Source: Candidatus Altimarinota bacterium (GTDB taxonomy: Bacteria > Patescibacteriota > Gracilibacteria > RBG-16-42-10). Taken from it: DNA of 9,356 nt. Both the position numbers and the translations under genes were made by a program. Positions 3,059-7,091 of the stretch are shown in pieces. Each line of letters starts with the position of its first letter. Positions within the stretch are counted from its first letter, which is position 1. Under the pieces are notes generated by a model. That model was not told where the DNA came from and ran no database searches. It worked only from the letters and a program-made list of their open reading frames with translations. The stretch spans positions 1 to 9,356 of the forward strand of contig JAGNZB010000045.1 in assembly GCA_017984655.1 (NCBI GenBank). Direction: 5' to 3'.

Positions 3059-3367
3059 ATGGACGCTCTAGGGTCATTGTTGCCTCGTGAGTTAGCTCGT
3101 CGTCATTTGATGGCTCCAGTACTCGCTGCACAAGTAGTTGACGCGTGGAAGGTGGTTGTAAAAAAGATCGTACCAGCCGTGGAGAAGTACACGCAAGCGC
3201 TTACATATAAGCAGGGATTTCTGACAGTGATGTGCTTCAATAGTAGTGTTGCGGCTGAGCTCCAGCTTCGTCATGATCTTTTGCATGCTGAATATGCGCT
3301 CTTATTCCCCAAGAAACCAATTATGATTCGTTTTCGGACTGGGGGACAGGTAGACCAAGGGCGATAA
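3059..3367 (+). CDS. DUF721/DciA-like small protein
   Basis: A 102-residue protein resembling the DUF721 domain, the fold of DciA, which assists loading of the replicative helicase DnaB in many bacteria. Visible family traits are a helical N-terminus with the conserved Trp30 (VVDAWKVVV), the hydrophobic strand GFLTVMCFNSS (53-63) followed by AAELQLRHDLL, and a closing strand IMIRFRTG (88-95). It starts 2 nt after the glycosyltransferase stop, so it is likely co-transcribed and translated by reinitiation. There is no Shine-Dalgarno sequence. Its last 47 nt overlap the end of ruvB on the opposite strand. The overlap and short length make this less certain than its neighbours, but the order of domain features is specific. 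DciA function is inferred; a diverged DUF721 member with another role is possible. Confidence 0.7.
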   Translation: MDALGSLLPRELARRHLMAPVLAAQVVDAWKVVVKKIVPAVEKYTQALTYKQGFLTVMCFNSSVAAELQLRHDLLHAEYALLFPKKPIMIRFRTGGQVDQGR

Positions 3368-4986: not shown

Positions 4987-5394
4987 ATGAATGTAGCTCA
5001 ATTTTTATCTTTGGCATATTGGTTTGAGTTGAACCCTCCTGGTGACTTTGTCTATCTGTCTCAGTCGATTGTTTTGGTAGTTGGTGTCTTTGTAGGAGCG
5101 ATCTTGGTGCAGTTGATTGCGCGTTTTGGTAAGATGAACGGTATTGTTCGCAAGTTCTTACGTCGTTTACCTGGTCCGATGTATCTAGTGAGCATCATTG
5201 CTGCTTTCTTACTTTTTGCTCGCTATCAGCGTGCGAGTTATATCGGTATGCGATTCTTTTTTCTGCTCACATTCTTACTGTTTGTGATTTGGTTGGTAGT
5301 GGTCTCGATCAAGTTTATCCGATCCTATCGTCGTGAAGTGACTGCTTTTGAAAAGAGAAAGGAAAACAAGAAACTCAAACGTCGCCATAAGTAA
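4987..5394 (+). CDS. Small membrane protein with three predicted helices, function unknown
   Basis: A 135-residue protein I do not recognise. It has three hydrophobic stretches: about 22-45 (SIVLVVGVFVGAILVQLIA), 64-80 (PMYLVSIIAAFLLFARY) and 88-110 (MRFFFLLTFLLFVIWLVVV). The basic loop between helices 1 and 2 (RFGKMNGIVRKFLRR) and the strongly basic C-terminal tail (112-135, many Lys/Arg) place both in the cytoplasm by the positive-inside rule. Helices 2 and 3 would form a hairpin with a short external turn. There is no signal peptide cleavage site and no enzymatic motif. It is divergent from ruvA, with 87 nt between, and its TAA stop lies one nucleotide from the stop of convergent yqeY. The coding call is supported by length, topology and fit between neighbours, not by homology. 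Confidence 0.8.
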   Translation: MNVAQFLSLAYWFELNPPGDFVYLSQSIVLVVGVFVGAILVQLIARFGKMNGIVRKFLRRLPGPMYLVSIIAAFLLFARYQRASYIGMRFFFLLTFLLFVIWLVVVSIKFIRSYRREVTAFEKRKENKKLKRRHK

Positions 5395-5972: not shown

Positions 5973-6001
5973 TTGACATGTGGTTTTTTCACAAGTATAG
6001 T
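5973..6001 (+). promoter_or_regulatory. Strong sigma-70 type promoter of the sigma-4/winged-helix gene
   Basis: TTGACA (5973-5978) is a perfect -35, and TATAGT (5996-6001) is one base from the -10 consensus. The spacer is exactly 17 bp. Initiation near 6008 gives a leader of about 22 nt before the ATG at 6030, with no Shine-Dalgarno sequence. This is the best promoter in the window and shows that the gene start is not truncated. Confidence 0.85.
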
Positions 6002-6029: not shown

Positions 6030-7091
6030 ATGAATGGTACCCCCTCCACATACTCCTCATGGCAGAAATTGGCTCTCAATGATGTCATTGAGGAGATGTT
6101 CATGGTGCTGACAGATAAAGAACGTGAAGTATTGATTCGTCGCTATAGTTTACACAACCAGCCCAAGGAGACATTGGAGAAAATCGGTGCTGGATTCACA
6201 GTGACTAGAGAGCGTGTTCGTCAGATTGAAAATGCTGCCCTCAAGAAGCTCCGCCGCACCCTGAGTAATACGAAGCTCAAAGATGTAACCAAGGCGGCTT
6301 TTGAGATTTTGGAGACCAATGATGGACTGCTGCTAGAATCAAAATTGATTCAGAAGATTATTCAAAACATCACTGATATTTCTATCGATAGTAATATCAT
6401 CAAGTTGGCACTGAGTATTGATGAAAATGTGGTAAAGGTGAAGAAAAATAGTTTGTTCAAACCAGCTTGGCGTCTCGACAATATTCATGAGCGTGTCATG
6501 CGCGATATCATCGACACTAGTTATGAGACTCTCAAAAAAGATCAGGACGCGATGTCCAACCAGGAAGTGATCGAAAAAGTAGTCAAAAAGTACCCACTCA
6601 AAGCGACGCCAAAATTTGTCACCGCTTGCCTGGAAGTAAGTAAGTTATTCAAGAAAGTAGAGGCTGGTTGGGGACTAATGGAATGGCGTCATATCAATCC
6701 TAAGAGTATTCGTGACAAGGCTTATATTGTTTTGAAGCGTGCTGAGAAGCCTCTCCATTTTATGGAGATTGCCAGCCGAATTATCGAAGCTGAATTCGAT
6801 CACAAGCTTGTCACCGTGCAAGCTGTCCATAATGAGCTTATTCGTGGTGATCATTTTGTACTCGTTGGTCGTGGGCTTTATGCTTTAAAAGAGTGGGGCT
6901 ACGTCGAAGGTACTGTCAGTGATGTGATCGAGCGTATTCTCAAAAAAGCACAGAAACCGCTTGAGAAATCTGAAATCGTCAAACGTGTCCTCGCCGTCCG
7001 CCAGGTCAAAATTGGTACGATCGCCCTCAATCTCCAAAAGAATCCAAAATTCGTTCGTGTTGGTCGTGCTGTGTACGAGTATCGTAGCTAA
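6030..7091 (+). CDS. Sigma-70 region 4 protein with tandem winged-helix (HARE-HTH-like) repeats
   Basis: A 353-residue DNA-binding protein, probably a transcription factor contacting RNA polymerase. Residues 26-76 match sigma region 4: LTDKEREVLIRRYSL, then the 4.2 helix-turn-helix TLEKIGAGFTVTRERVRQIE and NAALKKLRR. No region 2 (-10 recognition and core clamp binding) precedes it; only about 25 residues do, and a strong promoter lies immediately upstream. The rest appears to be four winged-helix units ending in similar wings: about 83-149 (ending PAWRL), 155-219 (ending GWGLMEW), 226-291 (ending GRGLYALKEWGY) and 296-352 (ending GRAVYEY). The third, with KAYIVLKRAEKPLHFMEIA, resembles the HARE-HTH domain of the delta subunit RpoE. 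It cannot act as an ordinary complete sigma factor. A regulator that occupies the sigma-4 site on the beta flap, or a -35 binding activator, would fit. The exact role is inference. Confidence 0.88.
   Translation: MNGTPSTYSSWQKLALNDVIEEMFMVLTDKEREVLIRRYSLHNQPKETLEKIGAGFTVTRERVRQIENAALKKLRRTLSNTKLKDVTKAAFEILETNDGLLLESKLIQKIIQNITDISIDSNIIKLALSIDENVVKVKKNSLFKPAWRLDNIHERVMRDIIDTSYETLKKDQDAMSNQEVIEKVVKKYPLKATPKFVTACLEVSKLFKKVEAGWGLMEWRHINPKSIRDKAYIVLKRAEKPLHFMEIASRIIEAEFDHKLVTVQAVHNELIRGDHFVLVGRGLYALKEWGYVEGTVSDVIERILKKAQKPLEKSEIVKRVLAVRQVKIGTIALNLQKNPKFVRVGRAVYEYRS

Follow-up and report, generated by a model that had tools for sequence, protein, structure and literature searches.

Alpha-CTD and sigma region 4 (sigma-4) are the two parts of RNA polymerase that read upstream promoter DNA. 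In split sigma factors, of the SigO/RsoA type, the region-2 partner carries no region 4 of its own. For the delta subunit, the sections of PMC7749165 consulted place the N-terminal domain (NTD) between the beta' shelf and jaw, with crosslinks via residues 82-90, including Y82, P83 and Y85, and describe the acidic tail as thought to displace nucleic acids. Chimeras in which sigmaA region 4 (sigmaA4) is joined through a linker to the flap tip helix are described in the consulted part of PMC10245118. Patescibacteria form a very large group of bacteria whose genomes are small and whose gene regulation has been little studied. Here we describe a family from this group in which sigma-4 stands without region 2 and is followed by four predicted winged-helix units.

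The window, by which we mean the whole 9,356-nucleotide stretch of Candidatus Altimarinota DNA that was analysed, belongs to a genome of 1.05 Mb in 92 contigs; its nearest named relatives are Candidatus Abawacabacteria, with a family protein 81-82% identical. The gene lies at 6030..7091 on the forward strand, as do all features described below, and encodes a sigma-4/four-winged-helix protein of 353 aa, identified by an ORF call with orthologues found. Its sigma-4 domain is encoded at 6075..6275 (residues 16-82), and Pfam Sigma70_r4 (PF04545) scores 49.5 bits (cut-off 24.1) at residues 26-75. Regions 2 and 3 are absent from the Pfam families listed for the protein up to E 1, with no PF04542. 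Sigma-70 region 4 with its reading helix is present and region 2, the part for -10 recognition and core binding, is absent, so that Pfam upholds the preliminary description of a sigma region 4 without regions 2 and 3. Elsewhere in the window, positions 3059-3367 encode a short DciA-matching protein (26.7 bits, Pfam cut-off 24) and positions 4987-5394 a small protein, membrane-like by its letters and with no Pfam family above cut-off, which has a counterpart, with gene order conserved, at the related locus L003.

A survey across Patescibacteria, which the preliminary description had proposed for this domain order, found full-length matches in 95 of 99 related genomes, its own included; the four genomes lacking one (G028, G055, G059 and G066) are 71-88% complete. 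For the phylum-wide count the profile was restricted to the C-terminal part, under which RpoD is not expected to match; it detected the family in 215 of the 379 genomes sampled (198 of the 341 best ones, and all 37 from the same class), leaving 164 with no match. The best E was 5.7e-18 or lower in each matching genome, and the protein is mostly single copy, with one match in 200 genomes and two in 15. A truncated sigma factor is ruled out by the full-length matches in the related genomes together with a complete RpoD in the same genome. Homologues with region 2, by which the preliminary description would have counted this copy as a truncation, did not turn up among the relatives searched, none of which has region 2 plus the shared winged-helix part on one chain. 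A phage or plasmid gene was likewise rejected: tblastn of the whole protein returned 28 phage records, none covering 80% of the query, and the 10 listed of these match over 20-26% of it, around sigma-4; among plasmids, the C-terminal part matched a single record, described below.

Second copies, about 40% identical to the first, were seen at L005, L006 and L007 and in the 15 two-match genomes (for example G060, G091 and G004), several of them at a distance of 5-8 kb; the promoter-like sites at L005, L006 and L007 are weaker. Among the relatives of the distant member L085, which are 78-83% identical to it, P0127 is filed as Candidatus Limnocylindria and P0143 as Verrucomicrobiae, labels that we take to reflect putative mislabelled bins. 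A third, P0121, is filed as Candidatus Saccharibacteria, for which cultured, genetically tractable species exist according to the consulted part of PMC10633639. The words 'RNA polymerase' and 'transcription' never occur in the main text of that paper, and the sections of PMC11665869 and PMC6744442 examined make no mention of the family. We found no study of the family in the open-licence literature searched, which is not proof of absence. Database names for its members include 'hypothetical', 'sigma factor-like helix-turn-helix' and 'RNA polymerase delta subunit', with 'DNA-binding phage protein' as one of a few further names, and the protein database already lists the pairing of both Pfam domains in an automatic tabulation. 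As far as we have seen, the modules are known and the repeats, the spread, the predicted filled groove described below and the conserved promoter are undescribed.

The -35 reading helix of the sigma-4 domain is VTRERVRQI (6201..6227, residues 58-66). R60, E61, R62, R64 and Q65 are invariant in 35 of 35 diverse members (alignment A2), and the other positions are T59 in 33, I66 in 30 and V63 in 28 of the 35. In primary sigma factors these positions serve to read and hold the -35 box (R584, E585 and Q589 of sigma-70). RpoD of the same genome, which is complete and has kept its own region 4, reads VTRERIRQIE where the window protein reads VTRERVRQIE. As a separate observation, the rpoD frame (G000:C49; loci L002 and L079), spanning regions 1.1 to 4, has no stop before an adenylate kinase domain and forms a 643-aa frame, which is either a natural fusion or a lost stop.

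A region 4 with no region 2 could also be one half of a split sigma factor acting with a separate region-2 protein. We regard this as highly improbable, because each of the three region-2 proteins identified in the genome, RpoD and two of ECF type, has its own region 4. Nor is there a neighbour gene, as a conserved operon partner would be, that the window and the 28 named loci all have in common, the commonest neighbour clusters occurring at 15 and 14 of these loci. As the genome is about 93% complete, an overlooked region-2 partner is possible.

Downstream of sigma-4, AlphaFold2 on 46 sequences predicted four successive helix-helix-helix-strand-strand units at residues 83-149, 154-216, 227-286 and 296-351 (mean pLDDT 84.9, pTM 0.70), and the homologue P0127, 37% identical to the window protein, gave a matching layout (pLDDT 89.7, pTM 0.71). 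The pTM is only about 0.7 in both cases and the models are not fully independent, since the alignment for P0127 (A3) includes the window protein and class members of the first alignment. Winged helix 1 (wH1; 6276..6479, residues 83-150) rests on AlphaFold2 and on profile links to wH2 and wH4, and winged helix 2 (wH2; 6486..6686, residues 153-219), with a delta-like WGLxxW motif, on AlphaFold2 and hhalign. Winged helix 3 (wH3; 6699..6902, residues 224-291) is a HARE-HTH unit by Pfam, with PF05066 at residues 227-289 scoring 41.5 bits against a cut-off of 25.9, and the likeness to HARE-HTH first noticed for this unit is thereby confirmed. It is also the best conserved part of the protein, with a mean identity to the window protein of 0.66 over 34 other members. 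Winged helix 4 (wH4; 6909..7088, residues 294-353) gave a second PF05066 match, below cut-off, and aligns with wH3 by hhalign.

Profiles of the units, built on the 35 diverse members, indicate that the four are repeats, joined in five of six pairs at 1.1e-6 or below. In these single hhalign comparisons E was 3.8e-10 for wH3-wH4, 8.2e-9 for wH2-wH3, 8.5e-8 for wH1-wH2, 1.5e-7 for wH2-wH4 and 1.1e-6 for wH1-wH4, with a weak 0.0084 for wH1-wH3; sigma-4 is unlike all four units (E 0.029 to 0.64). The four winged helices of the preliminary description, which it would have given up had prediction placed none outside residues 226-291, are thus predicted in two homologues, and the model of the protein alone has them beyond that range as well. 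Foldseek returned three hits with E < 0.001 in both models, two human UFL1/DDRGK1 chimera chains and SelB (1lva), whose C-terminal part also has tandem winged helices. An RNA-binding or translation factor of the SelB kind is nevertheless the least probable explanation that we considered, as 1lva superposes with TM-scores of 0.20-0.29 and an rmsd above 14 A, so that at most the tandem arrangement is shared, and the invariant promoter-reading residues favour DNA.

The models further suggest how sigma-4 may be separated from the polymerase. VIA-align superposed 7kuf_B, titled as sigmaA region 4 plus beta flap tip, on the window model with 83 of 85 residues matched at 1.7 A (range 15-135 of the model) and on the homologue model with 84 of 85 matched at 1.8 A (range 10-131); we interpreted the superposition from these residue ranges and counts. 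As sigma-4 extends only to about residue 82, it must be helix 3 of wH1 (6390..6419, residues 121-130), the predicted filler of the beta-flap-tip groove of sigma-4, that matches the flap tip helix of 7kuf_B. In both models this helix appears to occupy the groove. Foldseek alignments were more varied, with just 60 and 70 columns for 7kuf_B (window and homologue, respectively), reaching little past sigma-4, 121 and 122 columns at 6.4 and 5.0 A for 7kug_D, and 113 and 119 columns at 3.6 and 8.3 A for 6ido_A. In favour of such a plug, positions 124, 126, 128 and 130 are hydrophobic in 94-100% of the 35 members, and basic residues are few save at position 125 (K/R in 51%) and at position 121, which is variable (29%); in wH3 and wH4, by contrast, the helices are polar. 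The hydrophobic pattern agrees with that of the flap tip at 11 of 12 positions, in the best of nine registers, picked after the fact. The filled groove may itself stem from an AlphaFold bias toward the sigma-4/flap contact, learned from the known chimeras.

If real, the filling in cis argues against flap docking and for sigma-4 as a DNA reader. It bears directly on the idea that the protein is a competitor that docks on the flap tip and displaces region 4 of a sigma factor. In favour of this idea, the sigma-4 fold is intact, the flap tip of the same genome is ordinary (LTAEERLLRAIFGEKA), and phage regulators act at the sigma-4/flap contact, as stated in the consulted part of PMC3985653; with the groove apparently taken by wH1 helix 3 in both models, we consider flap competition improbable. 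Of the role first suggested for the protein, an action on RNA polymerase or promoters stays likely, and the displacement of sigma-4 from the flap is weakened. Competition for -35 DNA would fit the models better.

Promoter-like DNA in front of the gene provides a further link to the -35 box. The site TTGACA-17-TATAGT at 5973..6001 (-35 TTGACA at 5973-5978, 17-nt spacer, -10 TATAGT at 5996-6001) is the best sigma-70-type site in the window, with 11 of 12 matches, and ranks first of 14, in agreement with its earlier description as the strongest promoter there. The 14 sites are not above the number in shuffles (15.2, sd 3.8), and the weight of this one therefore comes from conservation upstream of orthologues and not from the site count in the window. 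We compared genes preceded by 70 nt or more of free DNA, picking the family by BLAST and scoring the best site; short or cut upstream DNA removed 2 family genes and 70 others at class loci, and 2 family genes and 63 others at divergent loci. A near-consensus promoter is conserved before family genes. At class loci a perfect -35 precedes 21 of 28 family genes and 7 of 82 neighbours (Fisher 4e-11), and at divergent loci 11 of 18 and 1 of 25 (Fisher 5e-5), the latter being the safer comparison because related genomes are not independent. The perfect -10 separates the groups less (12/28 against 18/82, p 0.048, class; 8/18 against 5/25, p 0.10, divergent), and a perfect -35 together with a perfect -10 stands before 9/28 (class) and 7/18 (divergent) family genes but 0/82 and 0/25 others. 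Similar results were obtained without the gap filter, where 32 of 45 family genes and 11 of 210 others have a perfect -35, in a looser scan (59 of 81 upstream regions), and, with gaps of at least 70 nt, when two short motifs picked the family (21/27 against 7/83; 10/17 against 2/26), a pick that left one family gene per set among the controls and is superseded by BLAST. Perfect TTGACA-16 to 18-TATAAT promoters are rare, at 0 to 56 per genome on both strands, and their counts show no clear split by eye between genomes with and without the family. These upstream sequences may point to high expression and to autoregulation through the gene's own -35 box. A near-perfect promoter may, however, mean just high expression, which counts against reading the protein as a regulator.

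The main rival to a -35 reader is a delta-like subunit of RNA polymerase, with its HARE units docked between the beta' shelf and jaw, as in delta, and its sigma-4 touching either the flap or -35 DNA, so as to tune initiation or recycling. Besides the HARE-HTH match above cut-off, the NCBIfam delta model TIGR04567 matches residues 226-295 at 8.7e-8, but its 32.2 bits fall short of the 42-bit cut-off, and profile matches to solved delta chains are non-significant (E 0.18 and 0.29, the latter for wH2 aligned to Bacillus delta). The invariant tryptophans W219 of wH2 and W289 of wH3 stand at the place matching the delta WGLRSW motif, just after which come the delta crosslink residues Y82, P83 and Y85; the own genome holds no other HARE match at E up to 10, and some source databases name the family delta subunit. 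By analogy, too, the nearest studied HARE domain, the delta NTD, binds polymerase, which would count against the -35 reader. On the other side, the protein has no acidic tail and ends in wH4, its net charge is +17 (positive in 32 of 35 members; wH4 alone +9), and the 164 sampled genomes with no match do without it, which tells against the -35 reader as well. No delta chain is among the 50 VIA matches listed, which carries no weight against delta. On balance we judge a delta-like role unlikely, yet not far-fetched.

HARE-HTH proteins outside the family were also tallied, in 30 of the 379 genomes. At E up to 0.01, 21 of 22 genomes without the family lack a HARE-HTH match, G141 having another HARE protein; in eight genomes with the family the HARE matches fall inside the family protein, and G185 has one extra HARE protein. 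The frames concerned, L102 (G185) and L103 (G141), are about 250 aa long, lie outside the family and score higher with PF05066 than the family members searched alongside. Another small subunit, omega/Rpb6 (PF01192), went unmatched at E up to 0.01 in all 50 Patescibacteria genomes searched, half of them with the family and half without (25 each), but matches 14 of 14 control genomes. Judging from these profile searches, the polymerase of these 50 genomes may have no omega, or one too diverged to be recognised; as a discriminator for presence of the family, omega was uninformative, at 0 of 50 with and without it alike.

Relatives with alpha-CTDs point to promoter DNA as the target. The C-terminal part matched one plasmid record, from Abditibacteriota, whose 568-aa protein P0241 (L115 26-1732) is annotated RpoD, has no region 2 in Pfam and shares the sigma-4 and winged-helix part at 26% identity over residues 15-349. 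P0241 has no recognised alpha-CTD. A protein search with it returned 10 entries: itself, P0242-P0246, P0247 (Patescibacteria type), P0250, and P0248 and P0249, which are ordinary sigma factors matching only 10-11% of the query. In all six of P0242-P0246 and P0250, sigma-4 is preceded by alpha-CTD domains of RNA polymerase, one to three in number, and no region 2 is listed in any. Of these six, P0244 and P0245 score above the HARE-HTH cut-off and P0242, P0243 and P0246 give sub-threshold matches; for P0250 no HARE-HTH match is reported. In a plasmid search, the alpha-CTD part of P0246 matched genes for RNA polymerase alpha in several records. The stringing together of alpha-CTD and sigma-4 in these relatives indicates promoter DNA as the target.

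Taking these results together, we tentatively favour a regulator of promoters, perhaps of its own promoter too, that reads -35 DNA as a stand-alone protein and does not take the flap from sigma-4. Its sigma-4 would read TTGACA-like DNA without flap docking, the polymerase-docking groove being plugged by the protein's own wH1 helix 3, and wH3 and wH4 would contribute extra contacts to DNA or polymerase. Occupation of the -35 box would exclude region 4 of RpoD, the housekeeping sigma factor, and hold down strong promoters, probably including its own. With less assurance, we put forward as a possibility that the family is a new class of transcription factor made from polymerase pieces, in which sigma-4 reads the -35 box, a winged-helix mimic of the flap tip plugs and so frees it from polymerase, and delta-like units, joined by alpha-CTDs in relatives, add contacts; such a protein would be a core promoter-occupying regulator across much of Patescibacteria. 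The presence of this protein of polymerase-type modules in 95 of 99 related genomes and in 215 of the 379 sampled from the phylum makes the family a candidate core part of the Patescibacteria transcription machinery.

Each of the known systems shares some of these features. MzaA, the sigma-70-like protein of the MZA anti-phage system, resembles the window protein in sigma-4 only, and its curated model scores the window protein at 63.9 bits, short of the cut-off of 800. With the N-terminal HARE domain of delta (RpoE of Bacillota) the protein has in common a HARE-type winged helix and a WGLxxW-like end; it differs in its four predicted units in place of one, its fusion to sigma-4 and its missing acidic tail. 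Region 4 of RpoD/SigA has the same fold as the window sigma-4 and a near-identical reading helix, whereas the window protein is without regions 1, 2 and 3 and its flap groove is predicted to be filled by its own helix. The crystallography chimeras of sigmaA4 and beta flap tip (7kuf, 7kug and 8d5v) likewise hold sigma-4 and a flap-tip-like helix on one chain; in the window family, for which a clear full superposition was obtained with 7kuf_B only, the helix is natural and part of a predicted winged helix. If this plug is real, the family would provide a natural sigma-4 freed from polymerase. The P0241 group differs in its length of 566-960 aa and in the alpha-CTDs of P0242-P0246 and P0250, and its alpha-CTD/sigma-4 members would then represent the same kit, assembled otherwise.
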